Positions 4,462 through 32,112 of a DNA stretch of 64,000 nt are shown piece after piece. The stretch comes from Sulfitobacter albidus. Its GTDB lineage: Bacteria > Pseudomonadota > Alphaproteobacteria > Rhodobacterales > Rhodobacteraceae. The first letter of the stretch is position 1, and every line of letters begins with the position of its first letter. Location of the stretch: the NCBI RefSeq assembly GCF_018200035.1, contig NZ_CP073584.1, forward strand, positions 9,623 through 73,622, given 5' to 3'. The notes below the pieces were generated by a model. It searched no databases. It saw only the letters and a program-made list of their open reading frames with translations, and was not told where the DNA came from. The translations under genes and the position numbers were made by a program.

Positions 4462-4493
4462 CGGCCTGGTTTGCAAGCATTTGGGAGAGCAAC

Positions 4494-5489: not shown

Positions 5490-5497
5490 CCTGAGGC

Positions 5498-5551: not shown

Positions 5552-5557
5552 ACCTAC

Positions 5558-5586: not shown

Positions 5587-5622
5587 CGAAAGAACGTCGA
5601 TTAGGCGAACGGGACCCTTTTG

Positions 5623-5644: not shown

Positions 5645-5653
5645 AATACAGGC

Positions 5654-10937: not shown

Positions 10938-11008
10938 ATATCCGATCTCAAAATAAGCTTTTTCGCACGTTCTTCGTGCTCCAAGTTGTCCCTAACAATA
11001 AGTGACAT
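10934..11008 (-). CDS. Tiny 24-codon ORF bridging the AddA-like gene and mcrB
   Basis: The ATG (11008-11006) overlaps the stop of the AddA-like gene. The TGA (10936-10934) overlaps the TTG start of mcrB, so the tiny frame fills the 70-base spacer exactly. The peptide begins MSLIVRDNLEHEERAKK and is charged, with no recognised domain. It may simply carry ribosomes to mcrB (translational coupling), or the overlaps may be chance. Confidence 0.3.
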   Translation of the reverse strand: MSLIVRDNLEHEERAKKLILRSDI

Positions 11009-14000
11009 CACGCAAATTCCTTTTTATCAACCGAACAAAACGACAGTCTGCCTTCGTCGATCCAGTTTATTGCCAAGCTTCGAACAGGCTTATCGGGTCG
11101 CGTGAGCGCCATGAGTTGCGCATAGCTTCTAAGCTGCGGAAGGTAGGTGTGAAACCTTGCCTCAGGATCAGGGCAGGGGCCTGATTTATGATCTAGAATG
11201 AGGAAGCCATCGGGGCCCTCTGCAAGGCAATCGATGATCGCGTTGGTTTGTGAGCCGTCCGGTCTGATCTCTTGCACGGGCAGTTCAAAGTGGAGCTGAT
11301 CATAACCTTCTGCGGCGAGTCTGTCTCGCAATAATTCAGCCTGCACGGCGATCTCATCTATGACTTTTGGCGCAAGACCTGTCGCTGCAATGAGTTGCTC
11401 CGAAAGGTTGGGCTGATTGGTCAAGACGCGGAATGCCAAGTGCAGGACGGTGCCGCGATCCGCCGCCGATGCAAATACCGCACCTGATGTATCAATCGCT
11501 GCTCCAAGTTCCACGGTGTTAATTGCTGTTGGCGTTTGAGAGGTGGCTGGTTCCTGCGTCGAGGGGCTTTGTCGCCAGGGCGTATGCGACGCATCCACAT
11601 TTTGACGTGGTGCGCCAAAGCGAGGATAGCCTATTAAGACACCTTTCGGCTCAACTTCGGGCCCGTCCGATGCGCCATCAGTGACATTTGCCGCAAAATT
11701 TTCTCCGCAAACCTCCAAGAAGCCAGCGCCGGTTTGAAGGCCACCGCGATCCCTAAGCAGATCAACCATTCGCTCGGCCTTGTCTCTCGCTTTAGTTTTT
11801 TCTCGTGGCAGGACCAAAATCAACCGGTCGCGTGCGCGCGTAAGAGCGACATAGAGTTCTCGCGCAGCCTCCTGTTCGTCTTGTTCTTGATGGGCCTGCG
11901 CAAAAACAGCCTGTGTTTCGGGCGCATCAAATTTTGGCAGATATCCAAGGTTGGCATGGCTCAAGACATTGCCCAAGTCTTCAAAGCCGTCAAATTCGGC
12001 GCTGAGTGTTCCCGGCCGCTCGGCAAATGTTTGATCCAGACCAGCGACAATTGTAATTGGCCATTCCCGCCCTTTTGCGGAGTGCCAAGTTGAAATCTCA
12101 ATACCCGAAGAGGACCAACCATCGGGGTCGGGATGCTTGTCCCATGCCTTATCTGTCTGGGCGATAATCCAGCCAAGGAAGATTTGCATTCCATATCCAT
12201 GAAAACCGGCAGCACTGCGCAGGTCTGTGGCAAGGCCGTCAAAGTTTTGCGCTTCGGCTTCCAGCCGCGCCAAGTCGGCAAGCGCTTGAGCGGGGCCGTC
12301 GATGCCTGCCGCCCATTCACGCAAGTTGGTGGACCGAAGCATCTCGGTAACCGTGTCGAAGACAGGGCGTCGCTGCTCTGCTTCATGCAGCGCTGCCAGA
12401 GGTTCGAGCGCTGTATGCGTGTCCAGAACGCGGTCGACTGCGTTGCGCAGGGCGTCCTCAATGGGCATGCGCGGTGGACCTAGCGTCAACCAAGTCAGAG
12501 CGGCCAATCGGTCACTTGGATCAGCAATATAAGTCAAAGCAGCGCGCGCGACCCGCATTGCAAGCGATCCAAGCCAGCCTGACTGCTGTAAGCGCACGGG
12601 GAGACCATGGGCCTCAATAGCAGCCGCAACTGCTTCGCATTTTGATCCAGTGTAGCAAAGCACCGCAATATCCGAGGCTTTTGCGGGACGCATGGCCTTG
12701 GTGACCTTGTCATATATTTGGGTGCCGTCTACTAACATTCGTGCGACGCGATCGGCGACGCAGCCAGCCGTAGTATCGCTTCTGCCTCCGGGTAGGTTGA
12801 TGACCTCGAGTGCTGGAACACCCGTTTCTTCACGAACAGGGGCCAGTGCATTGTATCCTTGCGGAAACAAGACAGGTCCTAGTGTATTCACAAACCCCAT
12901 AATGCGGGGATCGGACCGCCAGTTGCGGTCAAGTGGGGTGACAGCTGAGGCATGGGAATCTTGTAGAGCTTGGGTCAGCCGCGCGTCAGCACCCTGAAAT
13001 CCCATGATCGATTGCTTCGTGTCACCAACGATCAATGCGCGTTTGGCACCCTGCGCCAACTGCCAAAGCAGCGCGAATTGCACAGGGTTTGTGTCCTGGA
13101 ATTCATCAATGACAACGCAGTCAATCTCCCCCAACACAGCCGTAAGGATATCTGGCTGGGTGCGTAGCAACGTTTCGGTTTCGACGATCATATCGGCGTA
13201 GTCGACTAGGCCGGCTTTGCGTTTTGCGAGTTGATAAGCCTCTAAAACTTCTTGCGCTCCAGTAACGAGTGCGGTCACTTTGGCGCAAGCGTCTGCCAAA
13301 GGCCCAGGGTGGCGCAGTAACTCATCGGCACTGACCGTGACCGCCTCGGCTAGTTCATCATACCCTTCGGGTGTGGGAGACCCCCGCATAGATTTGCGCA
13401 GTCCACGGAGTTTCTGCCAAAGTGCCCAGTCTGTCTCAAGCGTTTCGTCTTGGGCAGCTTTACGCAGATTTTGATGGTCGCTAATGAAAGCTTTTTTGGC
13501 CGTCGCATTGCACTCAAGTATTGTTCCGAGAGACTCTGGAAACATATCTAACAAGGCAACAACGGTTCTGCGTAGCGCTGCGCTTAAGGCCGCGCCATCT
13601 GGGTCGCAGGGCCCGTAACCTTTCTTCAAAGCCGCTACTGCGGGAGCCAGAATCCCTGGCTCAGACCCTCGATCACCCAAACCTCGGATGAGGTCGACCG
13701 TTCTCAGCACATCACTTCGAAATGCGTCCTCTGCGCTTGCCCCTGTTAAAAAGTTCCAGCGGTAGCCAAAGCGCGCAAGATTCTCCATCAGTGGGCGCAG
13801 GCCTACGCATTTTGCCAATTCCATTCGGATCAGCAGGTCGCGCTCGGGTTCGCTTAGCAACCGGTTCCCAGGAGACCTACCTGCAGCAAATGCGTGTTCC
13901 GTGAGCAACCGCTGGCCAAGGGCATGAATGGTGCCAACATAGGCGTGGTCAATTTCCAACGCATCGGAAATACGGTCGCGCTTCATTAACTCTGCCTGCA

Positions 14001-14160
14001 CACGACCCCGCAACTCAGATGCCGCGGCTTCCGTGAAAGTCACTGCGAGAATGCGCCCTGGTGCGACGTTGCCGTCTTGAACCCAATCAGCAAGGGTCTT
14101 CTGGATGTGATAGGTTTTGCCAGCTCCGGCACCTGCGGGAACGATTGAAAGTTGGGTCAC
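11008..14160 (-). CDS. AddA/UvrD-like helicase-nuclease
   Basis: 1050 aa, GTG start at 14160 with a strong ribosome site (GGAGGACC) inside the end of the upstream gene; GTGA overlap. Superfamily 1 helicase motifs: Walker A PAGAGAGKTYHIQ (residues 8-20), motif II VVIDEFQDTNPVQ near 347, motif VI YVALTRARDRLIL near 775. The C-terminal PD-(D/E)XK nuclease shows GFLILDHKSGP near 985. It resembles AddA of double-strand-break repair but is plasmid-borne, pairs with a diverged AddB-like partner and precedes mcrBC, which suggests a defence role (inference) of cutting or resecting foreign DNA. RecB-type or defence-specific UvrD families are alternatives. Confidence 0.85.
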   Translation of the reverse strand: MTQLSIVPAGAGAGKTYHIQKTLADWVQDGNVAPGRILAVTFTEAAASELRGRVQAELMKRDRISDALEIDHAYVGTIHALGQRLLTEHAFAAGRSPGNRLLSEPERDLLIRMELAKCVGLRPLMENLARFGYRWNFLTGASAEDAFRSDVLRTVDLIRGLGDRGSEPGILAPAVAALKKGYGPCDPDGAALSAALRRTVVALLDMFPESLGTILECNATAKKAFISDHQNLRKAAQDETLETDWALWQKLRGLRKSMRGSPTPEGYDELAEAVTVSADELLRHPGPLADACAKVTALVTGAQEVLEAYQLAKRKAGLVDYADMIVETETLLRTQPDILTAVLGEIDCVVIDEFQDTNPVQFALLWQLAQGAKRALIVGDTKQSIMGFQGADARLTQALQDSHASAVTPLDRNWRSDPRIMGFVNTLGPVLFPQGYNALAPVREETGVPALEVINLPGGRSDTTAGCVADRVARMLVDGTQIYDKVTKAMRPAKASDIAVLCYTGSKCEAVAAAIEAHGLPVRLQQSGWLGSLAMRVARAALTYIADPSDRLAALTWLTLGPPRMPIEDALRNAVDRVLDTHTALEPLAALHEAEQRRPVFDTVTEMLRSTNLREWAAGIDGPAQALADLARLEAEAQNFDGLATDLRSAAGFHGYGMQIFLGWIIAQTDKAWDKHPDPDGWSSSGIEISTWHSAKGREWPITIVAGLDQTFAERPGTLSAEFDGFEDLGNVLSHANLGYLPKFDAPETQAVFAQAHQEQDEQEAARELYVALTRARDRLILVLPREKTKARDKAERMVDLLRDRGGLQTGAGFLEVCGENFAANVTDGASDGPEVEPKGVLIGYPRFGAPRQNVDASHTPWRQSPSTQEPATSQTPTAINTVELGAAIDTSGAVFASAADRGTVLHLAFRVLTNQPNLSEQLIAATGLAPKVIDEIAVQAELLRDRLAAEGYDQLHFELPVQEIRPDGSQTNAIIDCLAEGPDGFLILDHKSGPCPDPEARFHTYLPQLRSYAQLMALTRPDKPVRSLAINWIDEGRLSFCSVDKKEFA

Positions 14161-16751
14161 GACTGGTCCTCCTCGTCATTGGAGGTAAGGAAAGCAGACA
14201 CAAACGCATTGTCTTCGAGGGCGTAGGCCGTAATTCCGCGATCTTTTTTCAGCGCTGCGGCATCGTCTTCGTGGTTGAGGCGGATTGTGCCGCCACCGAC
14301 TTCCGCTACAACTTGCGCCAGATGGTCCATCGCTTGTTTGGAAGCGTCAATGGAGGCGTGTTCTACGCGGGGCAGACCTGCGCCGGCCGCATCGGACAGC
14401 ACAGTGCCATCGAGCATCGTGTGATAGGCCGTTACAATATTGGAGCCTTGTGCGACGAGGTCGGTCAAGGGCGTCTGAATTGATGGACGTTCAAGCATGG
14501 CCTGATACAGCGCAACTTGCAGATCCCACCCCTTAGCCATTCGATCCCGGCGGCCGCCTGAGCTGGAGCGTTTGTGATCTATAATCAAGATACGCCCATC
14601 AGGGAGCTTAAGCAGGCAATCTGCATTGCCACGCAGCAAAAGCCCGCCATGGTCGCCTGCAAGACTGATCTCATTGTGCAGCACTTCAGCTTGAGTTTCA
14701 TGAAGAAACACGACCCAATTTGAGGTGACATTATATGCCTCGCGTAGAAGGCTTTGGCGCTCTGTATCCCACGCGTCAGTCGACAGCCAAGCGGCATAGC
14801 GCCGGATTGCATCGTCCACCGCGGCTGGAACCGCATTCGCGATCATCGTTTGGTCTGGCGCTTTAGTGCCTTCAGGAAAGACAACTTCCATCACGTGGTG
14901 AAGCAATGTGCCAAGTGTCATCACATCCAGTGTTTCTGGGCCCCAAGTGCGATCCTTTGCGCCAAGTTCGTCCAGCAACCATGCCAATGGGCTTACGATG
15001 AGCGTCTCGAGCCGTGATGGTGATTGTGGAGCATGGCCTGTTTCGTCGTCCTCACGTAAGCGCAGCAGATCCGAACCAAGATGCAATAGCCCGATCGGAG
15101 GTACACTTGGCTTTCCACCAGACGGAACGGGTAGTGGGGTCTCTGCTGTTACGGGCCACAGGTTTTGAACTTCAGCGTGAATGTCCCGGATGGCCTTTTC
15201 AGAAGACTCAAAGCCCATCATGTGCGCGATAAGAGACAACCCAGTGGAAGGTGCCAGCTTTTCGCCGCCGAGGGTGCAGGCAGGTACTAGAAAAGTTGTC
15301 GCTTCTGAAGCTGCGCAAAGCTGACGCCTGAAAAGCTCAATACCTCGCGCCATTTTTTGCTGGCGTCCGGCAAGGTGCAGTCCCGTATGCTCTCGGATCA
15401 AGGCAATTTCGCTCTCAGTGAAGAATGGATTGCTGGCTGGTGGCCGCGGCCAAGTCCGGCCGGCAAGTCCAAGAACGATCAACTGTCGAACAGGTCGCCA
15501 AGGTAAGGCAGTCTCGGCAAAAAGCGAGACGCCTTCGACGAACCGGTTGTGGCCTGAGGGCTCGCTGGGTTTAGGTGATGCGATTTTGCGCAGAAGTGAC
15601 CAATCGATTTGATCGACTACTGCGGTTCTTATTGCTTGCAGCTTTGGCCAAAGACCGGCTTCCGGAGCGGCTTTAGCGATAGCCGTGAGGCGACCTAAAA
15701 GCTGTTCGGGCGTCGAGCAAGGACGCAATGCGTCGAGCAATTCGCGCGCAGGCCCATCGATCTCCGCTGCGGTTCTCGACCAGCCGTAATCCATCTGCTC
15801 ACGCGCCATGCGCAATCCGGTTTCTTTTGCCCACGGCATAGAGGGCGCGATGTATAGAGAGGCAATCGCTGTGCGGGGAGCTGGACGCTCAAGTAATGCG
15901 AGTAGAAGTGTCATCAGCTCGCCGACGGTGTCCCGCAACGCGGGCTCCATAGGCTTCCCCGAAAGAGGCAATCCGACACGGTCAAATGCTTCCTCTAAAG
16001 CGCGCTGATAGCTGGCATCATCAGGAACGAGAAGACCGACCTGAGCGGGTGTGTCCACAATTCCCGCGTCCAGAAGGCTTTGAACTCTTGCGGCCGCGAA
16101 TTCTGCCTCTTGGCGAGGATCACGCAAGCCGAAAATCTCAATCGTCTCGTCGGGACTAACTTGGGTCGCAGTCTTGCCAAGTCCTGCTTGAATGGCTCCT
16201 AGGGCCCCATTTGCAAAGGTGTCTTGGGAGGTCGCCGAATTGCGCCATGCCAACGCTGCATCATCCGAGACGGGACCGTGGTGCGCTAACAAAGCGTCTG
16301 CCAGTGCAGTTTCGGCAGGATCTGCAAAAGGACATTGCACATAATTGAGTATCGGCAGAGCTTCGAGCGCATCACTTGCGTTGCTGCGTAACACATGGGC
16401 CCAGGTGGACAGCGGTGCGGGAAAGCCATGAAGCTTTCGCCAAAGATCAGTTAACGCAACTAAGTGGGTGCGGGCGCGACCCTCGGGCAGGGTGCTTAAA
16501 TCAATCTCGCTCCAGTCCAGTGTGCGTGTACCCCGCATGACAGCGAGAAGCCCGTCCTCGACCGCAGCTATCGTTTCCGCGGGGGCAGCACTGAAGCTTT
16601 CTGACCAAGGGGCATGGTCCATCGTAAGAAGGTCTTGCAGTGCGAAGGGCTTACCCAATGGTGCAAGATAGACCTCCTTGAGAAGGTCTTCTGTTACGTG
16701 GCGGACAGCACCTGTCACAGGAGAGGCAGTAAGTAATGGATCAATACGCAT
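14157..16751 (-). CDS. AddB-like PD-(D/E)XK nuclease protein
   Basis: 864 aa from the ATG at 16751 (MRIDPLLTASPV); the frame is open to a TTG at 16814 but without a better ribosome site. The C-terminal RecB-type nuclease shows LRGNADCLLKLPDGR then RILIIDHKRSSSGG near residue 720, the D...DxK core. The middle resembles degenerate helicase domains of AddB/RecC (LIVLGLAGRTWPRPP near 430), and no Walker A is seen at the N-terminus. It probably forms a heterodimer with the next gene. First gene of the AddB-AddA-McrB-McrC chain; the 157-base spacer to the divergent gene at 16909 should contain its promoter. Confidence 0.75.
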   Translation of the reverse strand: MRIDPLLTASPVTGAVRHVTEDLLKEVYLAPLGKPFALQDLLTMDHAPWSESFSAAPAETIAAVEDGLLAVMRGTRTLDWSEIDLSTLPEGRARTHLVALTDLWRKLHGFPAPLSTWAHVLRSNASDALEALPILNYVQCPFADPAETALADALLAHHGPVSDDAALAWRNSATSQDTFANGALGAIQAGLGKTATQVSPDETIEIFGLRDPRQEAEFAAARVQSLLDAGIVDTPAQVGLLVPDDASYQRALEEAFDRVGLPLSGKPMEPALRDTVGELMTLLLALLERPAPRTAIASLYIAPSMPWAKETGLRMAREQMDYGWSRTAAEIDGPARELLDALRPCSTPEQLLGRLTAIAKAAPEAGLWPKLQAIRTAVVDQIDWSLLRKIASPKPSEPSGHNRFVEGVSLFAETALPWRPVRQLIVLGLAGRTWPRPPASNPFFTESEIALIREHTGLHLAGRQQKMARGIELFRRQLCAASEATTFLVPACTLGGEKLAPSTGLSLIAHMMGFESSEKAIRDIHAEVQNLWPVTAETPLPVPSGGKPSVPPIGLLHLGSDLLRLREDDETGHAPQSPSRLETLIVSPLAWLLDELGAKDRTWGPETLDVMTLGTLLHHVMEVVFPEGTKAPDQTMIANAVPAAVDDAIRRYAAWLSTDAWDTERQSLLREAYNVTSNWVVFLHETQAEVLHNEISLAGDHGGLLLRGNADCLLKLPDGRILIIDHKRSSSGGRRDRMAKGWDLQVALYQAMLERPSIQTPLTDLVAQGSNIVTAYHTMLDGTVLSDAAGAGLPRVEHASIDASKQAMDHLAQVVAEVGGGTIRLNHEDDAAALKKDRGITAYALEDNAFVSAFLTSNDEEDQS

Positions 16752-16908
16752 AATTGGTCTCAACTCTTCATGGCTTGGTCGTTTTCGTGTCTTAACAACA
16801 AGGTTGAGGCGCAAATTGGAGGGCTATAATACTGAAATTCCCATGTAAATCTTGCGGTATCAATGATGGGAAGGTATCGAATACGCTGTATCGTTGGAAG
16901 GGACTTTG

Positions 16909-17109
16909 GTGAGCGATCTATATATTTATCTAATCATTGCTGCTGCGATTGTGTGGTTTCTTATTCATTTTATTTGGTCATTTAAGTTCTGTCGCTGGTT
17001 GTTTGCTTGGCGCTATGACTCGCCATTTGCGGTTTTTGTTTCCAGAACGGTCTGGGGGTTGGGGTGGGTAATCGTTCCTGTTTGGCTCCTTGCCAGCGTA
17101 GGGTCCTAA
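16909..17109 (+). CDS. Small two-helix membrane protein
   Basis: 66 aa from a GTG at 16909 (VSDLYIYLIIAAAIVWF) with GGAAGGGA seven bases upstream. Two hydrophobic segments, about residues 4-21 and 40-62, separated by a basic stretch (SFKFCRWLFAWRYD). No family recognised. It is the first gene on the plus strand facing away from the AddB operon, and its stop is one base before the next start, so the two form a unit. A membrane partner for the adjacent nuclease-like protein is possible. Confidence 0.6.
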   Translation: MSDLYIYLIIAAAIVWFLIHFIWSFKFCRWLFAWRYDSPFAVFVSRTVWGLGWVIVPVWLLASVGS

Positions 17110-17110
17110 A

Positions 17111-17629
17111 TTGCCAGTTGCTTCAGTAGTTGACTGGTATGGTCCCTATAACTCTTATGATCGCTTGGTCGCGGAAGCCCGTCAGATGGCCACTAATAGA
17201 TGTATCTACATGGGGATTGGTGGGCTAACCAATAGTTTAGAAGTCTTGTATGTCGGCCTATCTACGCGACCCAACACCCGATTTAATAACCATCACGCCT
17301 TACAAGCCCAGAACATCAAACAATTCTACATTGGTGAGATAACAACCTCGGGACTCCCAGGGCGCAGGCGGAAAAAAGTTCCGACTGATTTAGACGCTAC
17401 AGAGCATGCCTTGATCGCATATCTTAGGCCGGAGCTAAATGTCCGCAGAAAGTCGACACTGCCCGAAGACTGTGTGTCTGTATTTTCGAGGTTCTTCGGT
17501 AAGAATAACTGGGAAAAACCCAAGCCGACGCCATACTTTTTTCCGCCCGTGATCGCGTTCAATACTTACTCAGGGGAATGGCATCCCGAGAGAGAGGACA
17601 TCACTGACGCTGCTGATAAAGCGTCTTGA
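17111..17629 (+). CDS. GIY-YIG-like nuclease domain protein
   Basis: 172 aa from a TTG directly after the preceding stop; the first in-frame ATG (codon 26, MATNRCIYMG) would cut into the domain. The pattern RCIYMGIGG...LEVLYVGLSTRPNTRFNNH (residues 31-60) matches the GIY...YVG...R...H core of GIY-YIG nucleases, and DATEHALIAYLRPELN (about 95-110) supplies the expected glutamate. The first motif is IYM rather than GIY, so activity is uncertain. Probably co-transcribed with the small membrane protein. Together they might be an accessory or defence module beside viperin. Confidence 0.6.
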   Translation: MPVASVVDWYGPYNSYDRLVAEARQMATNRCIYMGIGGLTNSLEVLYVGLSTRPNTRFNNHHALQAQNIKQFYIGEITTSGLPGRRRKKVPTDLDATEHALIAYLRPELNVRRKSTLPEDCVSVFSRFFGKNNWEKPKPTPYFFPPVIAFNTYSGEWHPEREDITDAADKAS

Positions 17630-17770
17630 AGTCACATGCTGCATCAGTGACATTTAACAAATCTCTAAACTGAACAACACTTTACAAGCTGGCCCAGAAT
17701 TGACAGCCGGGCAATGCCCTACACATTGCCTGATTCTTTTGACGGGCTGAATATGACCGGAGACCCAAAA

Positions 17771-19003
17771 ATGGCATCAAACGAATTTCTTTGGCCCATT
17801 CAAAAGCGGCGCGATCAATTGTCAGAGCTGGGATCCCAGTTGCGAAACCTGCAAGATAAGTATCAGGAACTCGAGCGGGCCGTCAAAAACTTCAAAGCGT
17901 ATCAGCCTGACGTTGAACGAGAAGAACTGGTTCGACTGAATGCAAAGGCATCTGAACTGTCGTTAGAGGTTGCCAACCTAGAGAGAAGCAAGGCTGTGCT
18001 GGATAAGCAGCTGAAAGACGTTCGCTCAAAGCAAATTAGCCCGGTGCTGTTCTGGAAATTTTTTAATGAGGAGCAGAAGGAGTTGCGGGCAGAAATGGCC
18101 CGCTTACAGCAAAAAGCCAATGCGGTCGTTCAGCGCATCGAGAACGATAAAGCGACATTATCCGAAACAAAATCCCAAGTTGAGCTGGCTAAAAAGCGCC
18201 TTGCAGAACACGATAAATTCGATCTCGAAAACACAGTTCGACTTCTGTCAGGTATTCCTAAGAGCATCGATCGTACAAAAGCTGATCGCGCAGCGGCTAG
18301 TGCGGAATTGACACGCATAGAAACTCGAATCCGCCCTCATGTGCAGGAGTATGAACGATTACAGTCTGAAGTCTCAACGCTGAACTCGGAAATAGCTACG
18401 GCTGAAGTTTTTAATCGAAATCTCGATGCTGCACCCAACGGGTACGAGCGAAAAATAATACATGAACAATGTGAAAGTAGATTTGGGACTGGACGTCCAA
18501 GCGAAGTTATCAACGACCGTAGAGGTAAAGTGCGGCGCCTTGAAAATAACATTCCCAAGTTGGAGCGGCGGATCCGTGATGAACTCGAAAAATCTGATAG
18601 AAACATTGAGCATCTTTTGATCGACGGAAACAACGTCTGTTACGAGGGGCAGAATTTTATTGAACTGCGCGCACTCATTGCGTTACTTGCCGCGTTGGCA
18701 GGCCAGTTTGCGATTACGGTAGTGTTTGACGCTTCTATTCGTTCTTTACTGAAGGCGAGCACAAAAGACATCAAACGCCGTCTCGGGCCATCTATCACGA
18801 CATACATCGCGCCAACAAAGACGGGTGCCGACGAATATCTTCTGAAATTAGCCGGGAATCTCAAAACCAGCTTCATTCTGAGTAATGATCGATATGCAGA
18901 ATATCATGACTTTGATGCGGTAAAATCCGAACGAGTGTTGCGATTTTTGATAGCGGACGGAAAACTCATGGCAAACGACCTAGATATTTCCGTCAATATT
19001 TGA
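17771..19003 (+). CDS. Coiled-coil protein with C-terminal NYN/ZC3H12A-type RNase domain
   Basis: 410 aa from the ATG at 17771 (MASNEFLWPIQ), chosen for the ribosome site CCGGAG eight bases upstream; ATGs at 17714 and 17753 are in frame. Residues ~5-260 are long heptad-rich coiled coil. Residues ~279-405 form a PIN-like NYN domain with the expected acidic residues: LLIDGNNV, VVFDAS, TGADEYLL and ILSNDRYAEYHD, the last resembling the SND motif of ZC3H12A (Regnase) RNases. Predicted metal-dependent ribonuclease. It ends 16 bases before the viperin gene, so the two are very probably one operon. Target RNA unknown. Confidence 0.75.
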   Translation: MASNEFLWPIQKRRDQLSELGSQLRNLQDKYQELERAVKNFKAYQPDVEREELVRLNAKASELSLEVANLERSKAVLDKQLKDVRSKQISPVLFWKFFNEEQKELRAEMARLQQKANAVVQRIENDKATLSETKSQVELAKKRLAEHDKFDLENTVRLLSGIPKSIDRTKADRAAASAELTRIETRIRPHVQEYERLQSEVSTLNSEIATAEVFNRNLDAAPNGYERKIIHEQCESRFGTGRPSEVINDRRGKVRRLENNIPKLERRIRDELEKSDRNIEHLLIDGNNVCYEGQNFIELRALIALLAALAGQFAITVVFDASIRSLLKASTKDIKRRLGPSITTYIAPTKTGADEYLLKLAGNLKTSFILSNDRYAEYHDFDAVKSERVLRFLIADGKLMANDLDISVNI

Positions 19004-19019
19004 ACTTGAGAGGGAATTG

Positions 19020-19874
19020 ATGCTGCATATTCCAGAGCTGACAATAAACTGGCATATTTTGGAGGCATGTAACTATGATTGCTATTTTTGCTATGCAAAG
19101 TACGGGAAAAAGTCCAATTTCTCTCGCGACTATTCAGAAATCTTGTACGACTTAAGTGCCCTCAGTGGCAAAGTGATTAATTTTCCGTCTGGACCAATTT
19201 CGGTCAAGAACATCAGGATTAATTTCGCAGGTGGGGAGCCTTTCCTAGAGAAGGAGCTTGGCGCTGCCGTTTCTCTGGCCTCTGAACTTGGGCTACGTCC
19301 TTCATTCATCAGCAATGGATCTCTCTTGACCGATAGCTTTATCGAACACTATGGCGCAATGATTTCTGTGGCGGGTTTTAGCATTGATAGCTTCAGCAGG
19401 GATACAAACCAGAAGATTGGTCGTCGTGATAACAAAGGTCGTCAGGTTGATTTTGAAAGATTTTCGGAAGTTTTTTCGCGGTTTAGGAAATTCTCACCTC
19501 AAACCTTACTCAAAATAAACACAGTCGTTTGTCGCGAGAATGTTAATGACGATTTTAATCAGCCACTTGTTGAGCTCCGGCCAGATCGATGGAAGATTTT
19601 GCGAGTGATCCCAATTCATGGCGCAGAAGATCTAGAAATTTCAGACGCACAGTTTGACGCTTTCTTGGCGCGCCATCACGACGTCGACTGTCGGATCGTA
19701 CCAGAGGACAACGCCCACATGCATCGTTCATATCTTATGCTTGATCCGGAAGGTCGCTTCTACCAACGCGAAGGGTCGGGCTATGTTAAGAGCGCCCCGA
19801 TTGTACAAGTAGGTGCTGCGCGCGCTCTAGAGGGTGTCGATTTTGATGCAAAGACGTACGTTAGTAGGTATTGA
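19020..19874 (+). CDS. Prokaryotic viperin (radical SAM antiviral enzyme)
   Basis: 284 aa from the ATG at 19020 with AGAGGG upstream. Radical SAM cluster motif C17-xxx-C21-xx-C24 (EACNYDCYFCYAK), SAM-binding AGGEPFLEKELG near 70, then viperin-specific blocks: FISNGSLL (~96), GFSIDSF, IGRRDNKG, LKINTVV with a following ENVNDDF, DRWKILRVIPIHGAED (~195) and RSYLMLDPEGRFYQ (~240). These match animal viperin and its bacterial homologues, which convert CTP, GTP or UTP to 3'-deoxy-3',4'-didehydro nucleotides that terminate phage RNA synthesis. No fused kinase. The substrate base cannot be read from the sequence. Operon with the NYN RNase. Confidence 0.9.
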   Translation: MLHIPELTINWHILEACNYDCYFCYAKYGKKSNFSRDYSEILYDLSALSGKVINFPSGPISVKNIRINFAGGEPFLEKELGAAVSLASELGLRPSFISNGSLLTDSFIEHYGAMISVAGFSIDSFSRDTNQKIGRRDNKGRQVDFERFSEVFSRFRKFSPQTLLKINTVVCRENVNDDFNQPLVELRPDRWKILRVIPIHGAEDLEISDAQFDAFLARHHDVDCRIVPEDNAHMHRSYLMLDPEGRFYQREGSGYVKSAPIVQVGAARALEGVDFDAKTYVSRY

Positions 19875-20480
19875 GCCTCCTAAAGTGCGAATGGCCTGAT
19901 GAGCACTGATCCGATTGAAAAATCTAAAATACAAAGCAGGCTTTGGCCGTTTTGCAAACTTGGGTCTTATCGAAGTGGGTAACGACAGCGACCGACCCTT
20001 CCTTAAAGCGGCGATGATAGGTTTCCAGCGGCATTCCCGCTGTCGTTTTAGGGGCCCTTGTCCTTTAGCAGGTCGAACCGCCTACGAAGTTGAAGCGAGG
20101 TCGACATTGAGAAAGTGGTCGCGGTGCTTGGCTTGGACCGTGGCATGGCTCGGATGCTTCACTTTTATCGACTTGGGGTGAGTGACTTGACCAACCTCTT
20201 TGCGGAGTTAAATATCGCTTGAGCGATTGCAGCGGCGTAGTCACGGGCTTTCTCCTGATGTGTTGAGTTGCTCGATAATGCTGGTCGCAGCTGTCGCCCC
20301 ATCCACAAAGGTTGCCCCCGATCTTTTTCCCCTGTCCCACCAAAGATAAGAGGTGGGCCATTCCTCGCGGGACAAAAAGAGCGGCGCCTGCCCCTCTCCG
20401 CTGCGCTTCGCCTTCGGTGTGTAAGGGTCTTGGCCAGCTGCAAGGTGACCATCATTGCAACGCAAACAAGGAGAAAAGCA
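19875..20480 (+). other. Gene-poor region and leader of the DUF736 gene
   Basis: 606 bases. The part up to about 20225 holds no supported gene. A 35-codon frame starting at a GTG (20115-20222; internal MARMLHFYRLGVSDLTN) reads like protein but has no known relative and could be a remnant. From 20329 the second copy of the structured leader begins, followed by the ribosome site AAGGAG at 20468-20473. Confidence 0.5.
20329..20407 (+). promoter_or_regulatory. Structured leader element, copy 2
   Basis: Stem CCCACC (20336-20341) pairs with GGTGGG (20352-20357) around a 10-base loop AAAGATAAGA. Downstream AGCGG (20380-20384) can pair with CCGCT (20398-20402). It aligns without gaps to 1592-1670. 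CCCCTG lies seven bases before the stem and CTCCGCTGCGCT begins 39 bases after it in both copies. The G-C to A-T change in the stem keeps the pairing. Probably a cis-acting RNA for the DUF736 gene. Confidence 0.6.
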
Positions 20481-20819
20481 ATGACCACGAACTGCATCAA
20501 ATTCACAAGCGACGATATCGAAACAGCAAAAGGCGTAGGGTCCATTTCAACCCTGAATTTCGACCTCGACATCACAGTCGAACCAATCGCCAGCAGCAAT
20601 CCCATGGCACCGACGCACCGTGTCCTTGGCCGCTCCCCTCGCGGCAAACTGGTCGAATGCGGTGGTATCTGGAAGAAGCAGAACAAAGACACCGGCTCTG
20701 ACTACTTCACCCTGACGGTCCGCGATCACGCCTTCAACGCCAACCTTGGCAAAGCTGCGAGCCAAGATGATATGTCCCTGCAGGCCATCATCCCCTGGGG
20801 TCCCAAAGAGGCCGCTTAA
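20481..20819 (+). CDS. DUF736 family protein
   Basis: 112 aa, ATG at 20481 behind AAGGAG. The arrangement KGVGSISTLNFDLDITVEP, APTHRVLGR and a C-terminal YFTLTVRDHAF stretch matches DUF736, small beta-rich proteins common on alphaproteobacterial conjugative elements; their function is unknown. Followed at once by a strong terminator, so it is a single-gene unit. It is preceded by a long leader related to that of the DUF2493 gene, suggesting shared regulation. Confidence 0.8.
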   Translation: MTTNCIKFTSDDIETAKGVGSISTLNFDLDITVEPIASSNPMAPTHRVLGRSPRGKLVECGGIWKKQNKDTGSDYFTLTVRDHAFNANLGKAASQDDMSLQAIIPWGPKEAA

Positions 20820-20824
20820 CAAAC

Positions 20825-20852
20825 AAGCCAGACCGCTTCGGCGGTCTGGCTT
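20825..20852 (+). terminator. Terminator with perfect 12-bp stem and TTCG loop
   Basis: AAGCCAGACCGC and GCGGTCTGGCTT flank the tetraloop TTCG, five bases after the DUF736 stop. There is only a short T run after it on the plus strand, but the stem begins with AA and ends with TT, so it may act in both directions. Confidence 0.75.
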
Positions 20853-20897
20853 AATACGTGCAGATGTGAGATTTCGACCTCGCGTGAAGAATGTATG

Positions 20898-20957
20898 TCC
20901 GAAATTTGTAACATTCTTCGGACTCGCGTTTGTCCGAAACTTGTAGTACATTTCGGA
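20898..20957 (+). promoter_or_regulatory. Two tandem 25-bp operators of the AbiE pair
   Basis: Two copies of TCCGAA-N13-TTCGGA at 20898-20922 and 20933-20957, 35 bases apart start to start, the second ending one base before the antitoxin ATG. AbiEi antitoxins autoregulate by binding two inverted repeats in their promoter, and this arrangement fits. No Shine-Dalgarno sequence is visible before the ATG, so the mRNA may be leaderless or nearly so. Confidence 0.7.
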
Positions 20958-20958
20958 C

Positions 20959-21624
20959 ATGACTCATGACGTGCAATCCAAATCACTACCAGATCGCCTT
21001 CGTGCACGCATGGACGATGCGCCGCGCCAAGTGTGGACACCGGCCGATTTTGCCGACGTCGGTGGTCGTGCTGCCGTCGACAAGGCTCTGCAACGCATGG
21101 TCACGTGCGGTCAACTGCGGCGCATTGAGCGAGGGCTTTATGACAAGCCATCCCAGAGTGCGCTGACAGGCAAATCAACTGTACCAGACTACCGCGCTGT
21201 CATCGATGCGATCGCGCGCCGTGATCAAGTCCGCTGGTTGATTGATGGGATGACGGCTGCGAACACGCTTGGTCTTACCAATGCGGTGCCAGCCAAAATT
21301 GAGGTGCTGGTGGATGCACGCCTCAAGCCGGTCACATTGGGCAATCAAAAGATCGTCTTCAAACACGCTGCCCCTAGTCGACTATATTGGGCGGGGCGGC
21401 CGGGCATGTATCTGGTTCAGGCTCTGCATTGGCTTCATGATGTCATGTCGAATGATGTCCAGGGGGCGACTGTTCGCAAAACTATACGGCGTCTGCTTGC
21501 CGATAAGGACACAGGTCCGGCTCTTTTGGATGATCTGAAGGGCGGTTTGTCAGCCATGCCGATCTGGATGCAAGATATTTTGCGTGCGCCTCTGTTTGAT
21601 GTGGTCGAGGGAGATCAAGGATGA
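20959..21624 (+). CDS. abiEi: AbiEi-type antitoxin (DUF6088-like), transcriptional autoregulator
   Basis: 221 aa. The N-terminal winged helix (VWTPADFADVGGRAAVDKAL then LRRIERGLYDKP, residues ~25-65) is typical of AbiEi/DUF6088 antitoxins of type IV toxin-antitoxin systems. The C-terminal part carries DGMTAANTLGLT and VLVDARLKPVTLGNQK, as in the family. It represses its own promoter through the tandem 25-bp repeats just upstream and antagonises the toxin without forming a stable complex (family knowledge). Its stop overlaps the toxin start (ATGA, 21621-21624). Confidence 0.85.
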   Translation: MTHDVQSKSLPDRLRARMDDAPRQVWTPADFADVGGRAAVDKALQRMVTCGQLRRIERGLYDKPSQSALTGKSTVPDYRAVIDAIARRDQVRWLIDGMTAANTLGLTNAVPAKIEVLVDARLKPVTLGNQKIVFKHAAPSRLYWAGRPGMYLVQALHWLHDVMSNDVQGATVRKTIRRLLADKDTGPALLDDLKGGLSAMPIWMQDILRAPLFDVVEGDQG

Positions 21625-22661
21625 GCACGGAAGGTTTCCAAAAGATCATTGCTGCAAGCGTTGCAGATCGCGCTGATCTGTTTCTCACCACCGCCAACAG
21701 GCTCGGCGCGCCGCTGATCAATATTGAGAAGGACTTCTGGGTCTGCTGGACGCTTAATGCGCTCTACCATCGGCTTCCTGCCGGTGGTCCACGGCTCCTG
21801 TTCAAAGGGGGGACATCTCTCTCAAAGGCCTACGGTCTGATTGATCGGTTTTCCGAAGACATCGACGTCACGGTGTTCCGCGATGATCTTGGCCACGGCG
21901 AAACACCAGAGGCGCTAGCCGCGCTCTCTGGGAAGAAACGCAAAGCTGCCATTGAAGCGATCCAGAGTGATTGCCACGCCTATATAACTGGGCCGCTTTT
22001 GGTGGAGCTGTCCCAGCTGATCGCCGAGGACACAAGCGGGCAGGGTCGGATTGAAATCGATCCTGATGATGGCACGGGACAGACACTTCTTGTCTGGTAT
22101 CCACGGGTCGACGGGTCCGACACGGGATACGTTCAAGCCGCCGTCAAAATCGAGTCCGGGGCAAAATCCGCCCTGGATCCAAACAGCCCGCAGTTGATCC
22201 GTCCGTACATTTCGGACGATTTGGGCGGCATTGATTTGGATGTTCCGGAGGTTCGAACGATTGATGCAGAGCGCACGTTTTGGGACAAGGTCGTCATCTT
22301 GCACGGGCTACGGAATTGGTTCGAGACGCGCGGTGAACTGAAGCAAGACGGGCAGCGTATTTCGCGGCATTACTACGATCTGCATTGCATGTTGGAAACC
22401 GACGCGGGTAGGGCTGCTGTTGCAGACCTTGAGTTGGGCGCGGACTGTGTGGCCCACGCGAAGACATTTTTTAACCGTCCTGATTTCAACCTAGGTACGG
22501 CAAAGCCCGGAACGTTTGCGCTCGCACCACCTGCAGACATGGCTGCGCGATTGGGCGGTGATTACAAAAATACCGAGGCGATGATCTTCGGTGAGGCTCC
22601 ATCCTTTGATGCAATCTTGGATTCGATTGCGGCTCTCGAGGACCAACTGAACCAAACTTGA
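21621..22661 (+). CDS. abiEii: AbiEii-type nucleotidyltransferase toxin
   Basis: 346 aa. DNA-polymerase-beta-like nucleotidyltransferase signature LLFKGGTSLSKAYGLI (~60-75) followed by FSEDIDVTVF (~80-89), the GG[ST]...DxD pattern of AbiEii/AbiGii. A later block RTFWDKVVILHGLRNW (~220) is also family-typical. Related toxins modify tRNA ends with nucleotides and cause abortive infection or plasmid stabilisation. Coupled to the antitoxin by ATGA overlap. Motifs are intact. Confidence 0.88.
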   Translation: MSTEGFQKIIAASVADRADLFLTTANRLGAPLINIEKDFWVCWTLNALYHRLPAGGPRLLFKGGTSLSKAYGLIDRFSEDIDVTVFRDDLGHGETPEALAALSGKKRKAAIEAIQSDCHAYITGPLLVELSQLIAEDTSGQGRIEIDPDDGTGQTLLVWYPRVDGSDTGYVQAAVKIESGAKSALDPNSPQLIRPYISDDLGGIDLDVPEVRTIDAERTFWDKVVILHGLRNWFETRGELKQDGQRISRHYYDLHCMLETDAGRAAVADLELGADCVAHAKTFFNRPDFNLGTAKPGTFALAPPADMAARLGGDYKNTEAMIFGEAPSFDAILDSIAALEDQLNQT

Positions 22662-23047
22662 TCCTGTCACTTTGAAGCTGTCGTTCGTTTTTTTGGAGCG
22701 GGTTGGCTGACGTGTAGTTTGCCCAAACTTCGGATTTGAGTGTGGGATACTGTCCTCTGTCGCATGCAGGCGAACTGATAGACGACGGTCGATTTATCAC
22801 CACCGTTGTGCTCCTTCCCATTGACCTGTTGGCCCATCAGATCGCTAGCCCGGAGGCGAGCGGCCTGCAACGCTTGGGCAAGGTTTCTGGACGGCTGGCG
22901 CCTTGCGCGCTGCGGTGCATCGCGCACAACAAACATTGCCCGTCGCGTGCTCCATTTCATTGCGCCCCAAGTTGGGTGCAGCCCGCTCTGATGCCTCCAG
23001 TCTTTTCCACGATCCGTCCAACGACGATCAATGGAAAGGATCACAAT
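22662..23047 (+). other. Gene-free leader before the small gene at 23048
   Basis: 386 bases without a supported gene; the open frame running into the next gene has no ribosome site before 23048. A T7 run after GTTCG at about 22687 may help end abiE transcription. The long GC-rich 5' region resembles in style, but not in sequence, the leaders at 1592 and 20329. The ribosome site AAAGGA at 23035-23040 serves the next gene. Confidence 0.4.
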
Positions 23048-23224
23048 ATGACATACGAACAATCCCTCGACCTCGCAGAACTGCAAGCCGACATGGCCTT
23101 TGAAACCTACCTCTCAGCCTTCGAAGTGGGCGACCATCCCGAAGTCATAGACAGCCTCGCAACCGAGGCTCTAATCGCCCAAGATCGCTGCGCAGATTTG
23201 CGCTCTCAGGATCTGGCTCATTGA
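23048..23224 (+). CDS. Small acidic protein of unknown function
   Basis: 58 aa, ATG at 23048 behind AAAGGATCA. Sequence starts MTYEQSLDLAELQADMAF and is rich in Asp/Glu/Leu, probably two helices, with no transmembrane segment or cysteine cluster. No family recognised. It has its own long leader and is followed by three hairpins, the last a terminator, so it is a single-gene unit just ahead of the mobilisation genes. The clear ribosome site and compact unit are the main support. Confidence 0.6.
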   Translation: MTYEQSLDLAELQADMAFETYLSAFEVGDHPEVIDSLATEALIAQDRCADLRSQDLAH

Positions 23225-23232
23225 GCCAGACA

Positions 23233-23283
23233 CCTCTGCGGTTGGATTGATCCGCAGGGGAGGGTGACCTCCTGTCGGAGGTC
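23233..23283 (+). promoter_or_regulatory. Two strong hairpins after the small gene
   Basis: CCTCTGCGG (23233-23241) pairs with CCGCAGGGG (23252-23260), with G-U pairs. GACCTCC (23266-23272) pairs perfectly with GGAGGTC (23277-23283) around TGTC. Neither is followed by a T tract, so they are not ordinary terminators. They may stabilise the mRNA end or belong to a small RNA with the terminator at 23304. Confidence 0.5.
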
Positions 23284-23303
23284 TCAGATGGGCAGTTGCA
23301 AAG

Positions 23304-23337
23304 GCTGACACCGACGCGGTTGGGGGTCAGCTTTTTT
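23304..23337 (+). terminator. Rho-independent terminator
   Basis: GCTGAC (23304-23309) pairs with GTCAGC (23326-23331), extended by an inner CC/GG, followed directly by TTTTTT (23332-23337). It ends the transcript of the 58-aa gene and its hairpins. Confidence 0.75.
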
Positions 23338-23624
23338 GCTGTTTTCATGCTGACGGCTTGATGCGACTTGGTGGCGCAAACCCTTGTATGTTGTTTGGTT
23401 GGTGCGGGCCCGTGTTCGCTTTGTGCGGGCGGCCAATAGAGCAGGCAATGATAGGCCTAATGCTTGGTATGGCTACTGGCAGGCGGTGTAGGGGGCGTTG
23501 AAATGCTATCAATGCAAAAAGATAAATTGCGCAATATATAATATTGTTATATAGAGGAAGGAGAAGAAAAGGACGTTGGCAGGATATGCCACTTGTCTGC
23601 GACATTTGTCCGAGGGGTTTCGAA

Positions 23625-24347
23625 ATGAAGACAGGAAGACCAAAACGCCTCAAGCTGGAGCAGCGCATTGAACTGGCGCGGCGATACCATGCAGGAGAAA
23701 CCCCAAAGGTATTGGCCGAAGCCTACGGCGTTTCTCGCAGGCATGTGACGCGGCTTGCAAAGGAAGAGCAGGGTGAAGGTCTCGCTGTGCGCGATCCCTC
23801 TGAGCGGGTCAGCTTTCGCGCCTCAGCGTCAGAGCTCGCAGCCTTTGATGCGGAGTGGCAGACACGCGGGTTTGCCAACCGCTCTCAAGCCCTCAATGCA
23901 GTGCTGCGCGGACGGTGTGGGTTCCTTGATGTGCCCCGTGATTTGGTCGCTGAGTTCTGTGCCAGTTGGCGGCAAGCCAAGGATGTCAGTGATGCAGGTT
24001 TGGCGCTCGCAAAAGCAGTGCATCGCGGAAAGGTGTCTGTGTCATCTGAGGACCGGGCCTTGCTCGTTTCACTGCTTGATCTGGCGCAGTGCATGACCCG
24101 TGAGCTTGGCCAAATGAAGGATGCAGCGCAGGTCCGGCGCAAGCGGGATTGGCCGTTAAAGGAAGAAGAGGATGCAGCCCTTCGGGCGCTTCCAGATCAG
24201 CCGACGCGGGCGGCATCCGGGCTGCGCTTGGTGGCGGGGGAGGGCGGTCGCGAAGGGGCGCGGAAGTCGGTGGCCTTGGGTTCGTGTGGAGGGGCCGCGC
24301 CGGAGGGGGGCGCGGCTGTGATCGATCGGAGCATCTCCAATGGCTGA
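23625..24347 (+). CDS. MobC-like relaxosome accessory protein
   Basis: 240 aa from the ATG at 23625 (MKTGRPKRLKLEQR), chosen for GAGGGG seven bases upstream. An N-terminal helix-turn-helix (KVLAEAYGVSRRHVTRLAKE, ~27-46) is followed by RVSFRASASELAAFDAEW (~60-77), resembling the ribbon-helix region of MobC-type proteins. The C-terminal tail is Gly/Ala/Arg-rich. It overlaps the relaxase gene by 8 bases, the usual place for an oriT-binding accessory factor. Function inferred from position and DNA-binding features. Confidence 0.65.
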   Translation: MKTGRPKRLKLEQRIELARRYHAGETPKVLAEAYGVSRRHVTRLAKEEQGEGLAVRDPSERVSFRASASELAAFDAEWQTRGFANRSQALNAVLRGRCGFLDVPRDLVAEFCASWRQAKDVSDAGLALAKAVHRGKVSVSSEDRALLVSLLDLAQCMTRELGQMKDAAQVRRKRDWPLKEEEDAALRALPDQPTRAASGLRLVAGEGGREGARKSVALGSCGGAAPEGGAAVIDRSISNG

Positions 24348-26268
24348 TCCGCTTGCCCTCTACAGTTCCGTCATGGGGAAGCTCTGGGAGGATGAGCGGA
24401 TCCGGGGCAAAGCGGCGGCGCGGATTGACGCGCGTATCGCGGGCCGGCGGCAGGGGCGCAGCTTTGGGCGTGTTGGATCCATGTCAGCGCGCAACGTGGC
24501 CAAGACCGCCAGTGGCCAGAGCCGTGCTGCTGTGTTCAAGAGGATCAGGGCTGGGGGATGCAAGACGCAAAGCTCCCTTGGCAATCAGCTCACCTATATC
24601 AATGACAAAGCGGTCTACACCAACTCGACCATGACCAATGCGCTGACTGATGACGCTGTGCTATCCGAGGATCAGAAGTCAGAGATCATCGAGGCGTGGT
24701 CCGAGACCTGGCGTGGATCGACCAAGCTCGGGTTTACCTCGCACATGCTTCTGTCGTTTCCGACTGACGTCACTGTCGATCAGGTCCGCGACATCGCGAT
24801 GGACTGGACCGAGCATTTCTTCGAGAGCGGTGAATACGGTGATCAGTGGGATTACGTTCTCGCCGTGCACGACGACCGGGCGCACAAACATGCCCACATC
24901 ATTCTGAACAATCGCGGCCTCGATCAGGGCACATGGTTTTCTTGTTGGGCCGAAGGCGTGATGTCACCGCAGCTGATGCGCGAAAAGCAGGCTGAGATCG
25001 CGGAAGGCTACGGCGTCATGCTGGATGCCACCACGCGGCTTGAACGCGGCATCTTCGAGAAACCCGCAGGCCTCGCTGAAATCTACCGCGCCAAAGAAGA
25101 AGCGCGTTTGCCGCGCGAAATCATCATGACGGCCGAGGAGTCTGCGATTGCGCAAGCGCAGGTCGTGGGCTTTGCCAAAGACTACACAGAGTTTGCCGAT
25201 CTGCTGGACCGCATGGACCAGCGCCATCTGGCGCGCGCCGTGCGCGGCATGGCCCAGAACCTCGGCACAGGCACCCCGTGGAAATTCACCGAAGGAGAGA
25301 TCGACATGAAAGATATCAAAACCGTCGGTGATGCCATCGACTATTCCGAGCGCACGATTGAGGCGTTGCGGCTGAAAGCCGAAGAGCTGGACGTGTCCGA
25401 GCGCGCCGCGTTCGAGGCCAAGGCGGCGCCGGTCATCGCGGACCTGTCGCAGATGGTGCCTGATCCAGAATTGCGGGCGCGCTTTGGCAAGCAACTTGAA
25501 GAACCTTACCCACCCGGTGCCGGAAACGAGGTGCTGATCGCAGCGCTGCAATCGGGCAATGACGGCGCTTTGAACGATGTCCTCGCACGGGCCGACGAGG
25601 CGGGCATGGATGGTGACGAGTTGGTGGCGCGGATCACCGCAGGCGGTACCAAGAATTATGGCATGGCGCAGGACTGGGTTGAGCGGGACATGAATGCGGT
25701 CCTCAGCAAAGACGGGCTGACGGTTGAGAGTGCGAATGACGAACAGCTTGATGGAGCTTTGAAGCGCGTCGATGGGGTCATGGAAGCCCTGACCGAACGG
25801 GCCAAAGAACTGGGTGTCGCCATCGGGTTGAGCCTCGCAGAAGAAGAGGAGGCAGATCTGCCTTTGATTGATGAGGATGATCGCACGCCAAATACCTATC
25901 TGCAGGATCTGGCGGATATGCTGCGCGATGGGCAGCTGTCGGAGGTCCAAGAAGAGACGGTTGAGCGCACCTTGCAGGCTGAGCTGTTCAAAGAACTTGG
26001 CGAGGAAGGTCTCGGCGAGCTGCGGCGCGGGAATTACGAAGTGCTTGATGACGTGCTGCCGAGCAAGATCGATCAGATCACTGTTACGCAAGAATTCCTA
26101 GAAATGACTTTTGAGGAAACCGGCGACCAAGTGTTCACCGATCGCGCATCCATTCTGCAGCAGGACAAAGCGACTGAGATGGCACAGCTCAAGGGGCAGC
26201 AAGAAGCCCAGACCTTAGGCAAAGACCTTGGGCGTGATCGTGGTCTCGACGACGAGATGGAATTCTAG
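24340..26268 (+). CDS. VirD2-like conjugative relaxase
   Basis: 642 aa, ATG at 24340 inside the end of the upstream gene. The N-terminal relaxase domain shows the candidate nicking tyrosine in GNQLTYINDKAVY (~82-94) and the metal-binding histidines in VHDDRAHKHAHIILNN (~176-191), the HxxxxHxH pattern of MOBP/VirD2 relaxases. It nicks at oriT, stays covalently on the 5' end and is exported through VirD4/VirB. The C-terminal 350 residues are acidic and helical, ending in a Gln/Asp-rich tail that may carry the transfer signal. virD4 follows after 15 bases. Confidence 0.88.
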   Translation: MADPLALYSSVMGKLWEDERIRGKAAARIDARIAGRRQGRSFGRVGSMSARNVAKTASGQSRAAVFKRIRAGGCKTQSSLGNQLTYINDKAVYTNSTMTNALTDDAVLSEDQKSEIIEAWSETWRGSTKLGFTSHMLLSFPTDVTVDQVRDIAMDWTEHFFESGEYGDQWDYVLAVHDDRAHKHAHIILNNRGLDQGTWFSCWAEGVMSPQLMREKQAEIAEGYGVMLDATTRLERGIFEKPAGLAEIYRAKEEARLPREIIMTAEESAIAQAQVVGFAKDYTEFADLLDRMDQRHLARAVRGMAQNLGTGTPWKFTEGEIDMKDIKTVGDAIDYSERTIEALRLKAEELDVSERAAFEAKAAPVIADLSQMVPDPELRARFGKQLEEPYPPGAGNEVLIAALQSGNDGALNDVLARADEAGMDGDELVARITAGGTKNYGMAQDWVERDMNAVLSKDGLTVESANDEQLDGALKRVDGVMEALTERAKELGVAIGLSLAEEEEADLPLIDEDDRTPNTYLQDLADMLRDGQLSEVQEETVERTLQAELFKELGEEGLGELRRGNYEVLDDVLPSKIDQITVTQEFLEMTFEETGDQVFTDRASILQQDKATEMAQLKGQQEAQTLGKDLGRDRGLDDEMEF

Positions 26269-31131: not shown

Positions 31132-32112
31132 CTAGTTGGGCAAATAAAACTCAGCGATTCCGCGTTTACCATCAATCCGCCCTAGCTGGACGATCACATC
31201 TATAGACTTCTGAATGTATTGCCTCACCTCAGCAAAGGTCAGCGGTGTCCCGGCCTGCAAGACCATGATGGCTAACCGATCGATTGCAAGTTCAGCTGTT
31301 TCCGCATGGATGGTTGAGACTGACCCACCATGTCCGGTGTTGATTGCTTCGAGGTAAGTCAAGGCTTCGTCTCCCCGCAGTTCCCCGACGATGATACGGT
31401 CTGGGCGCATCCGCAAAGACGCTTGCAGAAGCGCGTTCGAACTTCTCTGTGATCCACTGCTGCGACTTGCCAGAAGGCCAACGGTATTGGGTTGGCTAGG
31501 GAACAGTTCAAACGCATCTTCAATCGTGATCAGTCGTTCGCCATCATCGACATGAGTAAGGAGATGTCGAGCAAAGGTGGTCTTGCCTGTCGATGTGCCA
31601 CCACTGATCAATATATTGAGCCTTTGATGTACTAAGGCCTCTAAAGCGGCTTCAAGATTTTCTTCAGCTTGGCTGGCAATTTCCTTCATCTTTTCAGCCC
31701 TTAGTTGGTCGAGCGAGACAGCTTTGCCAAAAAGATATGATGGTTTGTACCCCTTCACGCCGCCTGTGGCGAAGAGACGGATCGTGATCGAAGCACCCTG
31801 TTCGATGGCTGGTGGAACCGCGACCTGAACGCGCAGAGGTCGGTCTGCATATTCAACTTTGCCAGACACTAGCGGGTTTTTCTCTGAGACGCGCGCATTG
31901 GCATCACCGACGATTGTCTGTGCCATATTGAATGCTGTGGCACGGTCTACGGTTTGGCCTTCGTGTCGCATTGTGGCGTCAGCTGCGGCCTCGATCCATA
32001 CTTTGCCATCAGGGTTGATAGCGATTTCGACGACATCGTCGCGCAGTAACAGGTCTCGAAACGGCTCAAGATATCGTTCCAAGTACGACGCAGGCAGTGG
32101 GGATTGGCTCAA
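31132..32112 (-). CDS. virB11: VirB11 traffic ATPase
   Basis: 326 aa. Hexameric cytoplasmic ATPase that powers pilus assembly and substrate transfer. Walker A ISGGTSTGKTTFARHL near residue 168, Asp box DRIIVGELRGDEALTYLEA near 240 and His box NTGHGGSVSTIHAE near 262, all intact. Its ATG overlaps the virB10 stop by four bases. It is the last gene of the virB operon. Confidence 0.95.
   Translation of the reverse strand: MSQSPLPASYLERYLEPFRDLLLRDDVVEIAINPDGKVWIEAAADATMRHEGQTVDRATAFNMAQTIVGDANARVSEKNPLVSGKVEYADRPLRVQVAVPPAIEQGASITIRLFATGGVKGYKPSYLFGKAVSLDQLRAEKMKEIASQAEENLEAALEALVHQRLNILISGGTSTGKTTFARHLLTHVDDGERLITIEDAFELFPSQPNTVGLLASRSSGSQRSSNALLQASLRMRPDRIIVGELRGDEALTYLEAINTGHGGSVSTIHAETAELAIDRLAIMVLQAGTPLTFAEVRQYIQKSIDVIVQLGRIDGKRGIAEFYLPN

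Follow-up and report, generated by a model that had tools for sequence, protein, structure and literature searches.

The window, a stretch of 64,000 nucleotides of Sulfitobacter albidus, carries a gene for a coiled-coil protein with a C-terminal NYN domain directly followed by a gene for a prokaryotic viperin. The two genes adjoin each other on this plasmid as well as in contigs of phage type, their sequences diverge together, and in other loci the NYN gene is combined with a different partner. We interpret the pair as a mobile two-gene antiphage cassette, in which viperin and the NYN RNase would both strike phage RNA and the NYN protein would be the core; the probability of this interpretation is estimated at about 0.5. 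The features of the pair and of its surroundings are listed in Table 1.

Table 1. Features of the window related to the NYN/viperin pair. Residue numbers of the NYN protein refer to the 429-aa ORF, not to the 410-aa protein.
Feature	Position	Strand	Remarks
ParA/RepB/RepC-type genes	3123-6952		
McrBC-like pair	7117-10937	other strand than NYN/viperin pair	
AddAB-like helicase-nuclease pair	11008-16814		adjoins McrBC-like pair
Coiled-coil/NYN protein	17771..19003	+	410 aa, first gene of the pair
Coiled-coil part	17771..18598	+	residues 20-295, AlphaFold model
NYN/PIN domain	18602..18985	+	residues 297-424, structural match of AlphaFold model
Acidic positions of NYN site	D304 18623-18625; D339 18728-18730; D373-E374 18830-18835; D392 18887-18889	+	
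Intergenic gap	19004..19019	+	16 bases, AGAGGG before viperin ATG
Prokaryotic viperin	19020..19874	+	284 aa, second gene of the pair
Radical SAM CxxxCxxC	19068..19091	+	CNYDCYFC
AbiE genes	20959-22661		
Relaxase	24340-26268		
Coupling protein	26284-28185		
Type IV secretion genes	within 31132-40928		

By its sequence, the second gene encodes a true prokaryotic viperin (pVip, NF038283). It matched the NF038283 profile with 299.7 bits (cut-off 180), residues 7-285 being aligned to positions 1-280 of 281, and the PADLOC pVip profile with 285.5 bits; the match to a solved viperin-like enzyme had an E value of 1.9e-34. The three cysteines of the cluster motif were kept in all 21 aligned rows, the query included. 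Viperins produce 3'-deoxy-3',4'-didehydro-NTPs, which terminate transcription, and family membership suggests that this protein makes a ddhNTP as well. No nucleotide kinase was found beside or fused to viperin among the scanned neighbours (the short ORFs at 19915-20692 were outside the scan). The initial annotation had correctly placed the 410-aa protein sixteen bases upstream and recognized both families, but the two genes, described there as fused, are separate ORFs. Since scans for promoters and terminators at the pair gave only matches at chance level, it is the spacing that suggests co-transcription of the two genes.

The start methionine of the NYN protein was kept in 20 of 20 rows, including the query. 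In the AlphaFold model, the coiled-coil part consists of six helices (residues 24-62, 65-106, 119-168, 171-239, 243-257, and 262-295). Its only NCBIfam matches were of SMC type and lay far below the cut-off; matches to PADLOC LmuB/JetC were of the same kind. Membership in the SMC, Rad50, or Lamassu families was rejected: the sub-cut-off NCBIfam matches were confined to the helices and no Pfam ATPase match was obtained. The C-terminal part is modelled as a NYN/PIN-like RNase fold (PF11977 type) with a complete acidic site, and the protein ends five residues past this domain. The best structural matches were KHNYN, ZC3H12C, and MCPIP1, with 23-26% identity to the vertebrate KHNYN/ZC3H12 structures over 120-125 residues. 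At the sequence level, the Pfam search revealed no NYN match in this protein, and a profile match from the PDB was weak (E 0.0041). Matches to HicA or RelE were absent at E 0.1 from PADLOC, Pfam, and NCBIfam.

The blocks around D304, D373, and D392 align with IDGSN, DDRFMVKLA, and VSND of KHNYN, respectively. All five acidic residues (D304, D339, D373, E374, and D392), which we take from knowledge of the family to bind metal, were unchanged in 66 of 66 rows of an alignment that takes in the query, one identical copy, and three plasmid homologues at 21-28% identity. Mean conservation was 0.84 for the NYN domain, 0.79 for residues 200-295, and 0.64 for residues 20-199. NYN domains of the KHNYN/Regnase type cleave single-stranded RNA. 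Taken together, fold and active site point to a metal-dependent single-strand endoribonuclease. ZC3H12/Regnase proteins have a CCCH zinc finger following their NYN domain; here it is absent, the whole protein having only two cysteines (253 and 309). The likeness to Regnase/ZC3H12A proposed in the initial annotation thus holds for the KHNYN/ZC3H12-type fold and its acidic site, the latter being present in the predicted structure, but not for membership in the ZC3H12A family.

The window lies on contig C4 of a five-contig genome and belongs to a conjugative plasmid of RepABC type. The McrBC-like pair, the AddAB-like pair (whose matches are far below the cut-offs of AddA and related equivalogs), the NYN/viperin pair, and AbiE follow each other in this order between the replication and mobilisation genes. 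When region 16800-24400 was compared with plasmids, the best matches were Sulfitobacter plasmids with about 86% identity over 42% of the query, starting from window position 20230. In two inspected relatives, the stretch before DUF736 contains a HipA toxin gene and an HTH gene instead of NYN and viperin; the location of the pair therefore looks like a variable accessory slot of the plasmid. Also, a DndB-like gene, an SMC/AAA-type ATPase, a helicase, and a large sigma-region-4-like protein are encoded on the same strand at 50168-59890; this region has the appearance of another defence cassette of the plasmid. A GIY-YIG-like ORF at 17111-17629 was considered as a third member of the NYN/viperin cassette and discarded: its Pfam match (E 0.035) was below the cut-off and was not obtained in a second run at 0.01, and tblastn matched none of the remaining 24 sequences in the test set.

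This test set comprised 25 sequences, the window and 24 loci, and was searched with six queries, two each for NYN, viperin, and the membrane-type protein. Ten distinct loci with NYN-family proteins of at least 48% identity were counted, after identical copies had been dropped (L032/L069, L033/L067, L052/L064, and L065). Viperin is located downstream of the NYN gene on the same strand in five of them, with a gap of 16 bases in the window, L047, L053, and L054, and of 18 bases in L055. The other five NYN loci lack viperin: four (L048, L049, L050, and L068) have a gene for a glycine-rich protein of 237-251 aa upstream of NYN on the same strand, the cassettes of L048 and L049 being close to each other, and one (L070) has neither viperin nor this membrane-type protein. 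Both partners together were not observed in any of the ten loci. In L047, the NYN gene is cut by the contig end and the viperin reads, after 140 residues, into sulphite reductase, a junction that is probably a chimera of the metagenome-assembled genome.

More distant NYN proteins, with 29-38% identity in the matched parts, have neither partner; they were found in L051 and in plasmid stretches L075-L078 (four stretches inspected among 19 plasmid records with remote NYN homologues; L077 is truncated at the start of its record). Three of these stretches, L075, L076, and L078, come from large Pseudomonas plasmids, including pQBR103, and encode stand-alone coiled-coil/NYN proteins of 403-422 aa that are annotated as hypothetical.

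The glycine-rich partner of 237 aa (L048 9007-9720, L068 10335-11048, relatives P0243-P0362) is widespread, with 396 matches. It had no Pfam match; among the matches listed, 3 of 120 relatives contain an HTH_3 domain. Its hydrophobicity is borderline, one window exceeding 1.6 in L068 and several in L069. Just past NYN, loci of the membrane-partner variant encode another protein on the opposite strand, similar between loci (L048 11321-11941, L049 3552-4172, L068 8091-8735); in the protein from L068, a DnaJ-zinc-finger-like match stayed below the cut-off.

Viewed from the viperin side, NYN is directly upstream in five of seven loci with viperins of the same subclade (63% identity or more). In L086 (8535-9564), a Mutator-family transposase occupies the place of NYN, and a C-terminal NYN remnant of 43 residues precedes the intact viperin by 22 bases; L082 (genome G808) has a same-subclade viperin without NYN. 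These two loci suggest that viperin can persist without NYN. In L082 (5768-14465), the viperin gene and an AIRS-type gene overlap by 8 bases, a thymidylate-synthase-like gene comes next, and a NACHT/Schlafen-type protein is encoded upstream; this region is possibly a nucleotide-modifying viperin operon. No NYN gene was found beside viperins of less than 40% identity in eight inspected loci (three over-cut-off class genomes, three family/order genomes, and two of 14 plasmid records). Accordingly, the NYN gene, first proposed as a partner of viperin from the window, is a conserved neighbour, on the upstream side, of viperins from one subclade and is not specific to viperin. Neither of the two outcomes given in the initial annotation as contradicting its proposal, a lack of this neighbour at any other viperin locus and a predicted structure without the acidic site, was obtained.

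Three loci of the pair are viral contigs (L053, L054, and L055), in which it lies immediately 5' of the tail terminator gene phrog_4204. The surrounding genes encode portal, protease, minor tail, and tape-measure proteins in L053, major head and head-closure proteins in L054, and minor tail and tape-measure proteins in L055. In L048, which has a related tail module, the genes for NYN and the membrane-type protein are on the strand opposite to the tail terminator and about 1.4 kb away from it. Viperin thus occurs as cargo of phage-type contigs. Catalogued phages gave no NYN/viperin matches in 50,697 records at 1e-5.

The identities of NYN and viperin are correlated across 13 pairs (r 0.95; none of 5000 permutations as high). 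For all 19 pairs, of which four were read in DNA and 15 matched by the size of the longest contig only, r was 0.48, with 11 of 5000 permutations as high. The six pairs dropped from the smaller set were partial or inconsistent: P0007/P0202, P0069/P0134, P0022/P0204, and P0060/P0173 had unsure links; P0008/P0201 and P0085/P0176 had partial rows. Both genes are under purifying selection in the pairs compared. Namely, dN/dS between the partial genes of the window and L047 was 0.15 for NYN (321 codons) and 0.12 for viperin (140 codons), and between L053 and L054 it was 0.13 and 0.20, respectively. A tree of 130 rows implies a minimum of three partner changes, a soft figure because unsure rows kept the viperin-linked label (P0008, P0022, P0060, and P0085 were marked although dropped, and P0007 and P0069 were unmarked).

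The cassette is a rare and patchy cargo. Among 394 family genomes, three had a strong NYN match, as did three of 387 relatives. Another 13 matches in family genomes were weak: 12 were short ORFs that aligned with the NYN region, and one aligned with the coiled coil. Viperin was detected at 1e-20 in 2 of the 394 family genomes and in 2 of the 62 genomes of the genus. At order level, with a threshold of 1e-40, 5 of 361 genomes carried it, and 4 of 385 class genomes had a viperin that exceeded the curated cut-off. These samples overlap, and each includes the window's own genome. A protein collection searched at 1e-3 yielded 175 NYN and 2234 viperin-type matches, many of them metagenome-derived. 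Links were defined here as the same size of the longest contig in both source assemblies, with 120 matches listed per family; on this basis, viperin was linked to 15 of the 120 listed NYN proteins (0-4 in controls), and the membrane-type protein was linked to 6 of them (0-3 in controls).

If the pair is an antiphage cassette, viperin would, judging by its family, use a nucleoside triphosphate to make a ddh-chain terminator and stop phage transcription. The coiled coil would most likely multimerise the NYN protein and restrain it until infection; once active, the NYN protein would cleave transcripts, and with viperin beside it phage RNA would be hit at the levels of both synthesis and stability. 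The partner, viperin or the putative membrane protein, may be an exchangeable second effector. Because NYN is constant while the partner is swapped, we take it as the core of the cassette, which is more likely than an accessory role to viperin. The same pattern of a constant NYN protein and a swappable partner is that of a sensor and its effectors. A tentative, possible version is a new, modular kind of defence in which the coiled-coil NYN RNase senses infection and recruits or licenses viperin or a membrane-disrupting protein. Temperate phages of marine alphaproteobacteria would carry this cassette in their tail-gene modules to combat competing phages, and it would have been passed to plasmids of these bacteria. 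It is rather unlikely that the NYN protein is a sensor or adaptor whose cleavage is not itself the defence, with the coiled coil detecting a phage product and the NYN domain making an RNA signal or binding RNA to license viperin. Residues 200-295 are conserved nearly like the NYN domain, as would suit such a role, but the acidic nuclease positions are invariant, which argues that cleavage matters.

A constant NYN member with unrelated partners would also fit a control gene, that is, a GhoS-like RNase that cuts the mRNA of its partner and keeps it silent, the partner being costly or toxic, until NYN is removed or overwhelmed in the course of phage infection. The glycine-rich partner would suit a small membrane toxin, its hydrophobicity being borderline. 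However, the coiled coil of about 250 residues far exceeds the antitoxin RNases known to us, and the viperins of G808 and of the transposon-cut locus L086, kept without a working NYN neighbour, suggest that viperin is tolerated alone; we regard a control gene as improbable. Defence slots do gather unrelated genes, both NYN and viperin have other neighbours elsewhere, and the same plasmid slot holds the HipA pair in the two relatives, so that two cargo genes might have met by transposition and hitch-hiking without any functional link. Against this, order, strand, and the gap of 16-18 bases are the same in plasmid and phage-type loci with NYN proteins only 48-54% identical, and the divergence of the two genes is correlated; such a chance association appears very unlikely. 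The NYN/viperin pair makes it testable whether chain-terminating nucleotides and RNA cleavage act jointly, and through the partner swap the RNase role can be parted directly from the effector role.

The NYN protein shares the NYN/PIN domain fold and acidic motifs with vertebrate KHNYN and ZC3H12/Regnase, but a coiled coil replaces their other domains, such as the KH domain carried by KHNYN, and the zinc finger is missing. In vertebrates, viperin and the NYN RNases KHNYN and Regnase are separate genes in antiviral and inflammatory control; bacteria and phages bundle the viperin and NYN folds in one cassette. The variant with the membrane-type partner perhaps resembles the type V toxin-antitoxin system GhoST, in which an RNase gene is next to a membrane toxin gene; GhoS is a small RNase antitoxin with a fold other than NYN. 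CoCoNuTs, as far as described in the accessible part of the source, likewise combine extensive coiled coils with nucleases and are predicted to target RNA, but represent a branch of McrBC (PMC11090510), while the McrBC-like pair of the window is apart and on the other strand. The second gene agrees with known pVips (NF038283, PADLOC) in the radical SAM motif, the full-length match, and the KINTVV, RWK, and PE(D/S)N blocks. Its coiled-coil NYN partner differs from the recorded ones, which, in the accessible parts of these sources, are a kinase and TPR proteins (PADLOC descriptions; a TPR-associated viperin type in PMC12988326) and HicA and RelE (PMC10865869). A pairing of viperin with an RNase is not unprecedented: hicA and relE directly adjoin pVip genes and are discussed as a link between RNases and viperin (PMC10865869, accessible part). 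An NYN partner of viperin was not found in the openly accessible literature searched. Compared with hicA-pVip and relE-pVip as presented in that part, the cassette differs in its NYN/PIN fold, long coiled coil, location in phage tail modules, and swappable partner, and NYN becomes the third, unrelated RNase type beside viperins after HicA and RelE.
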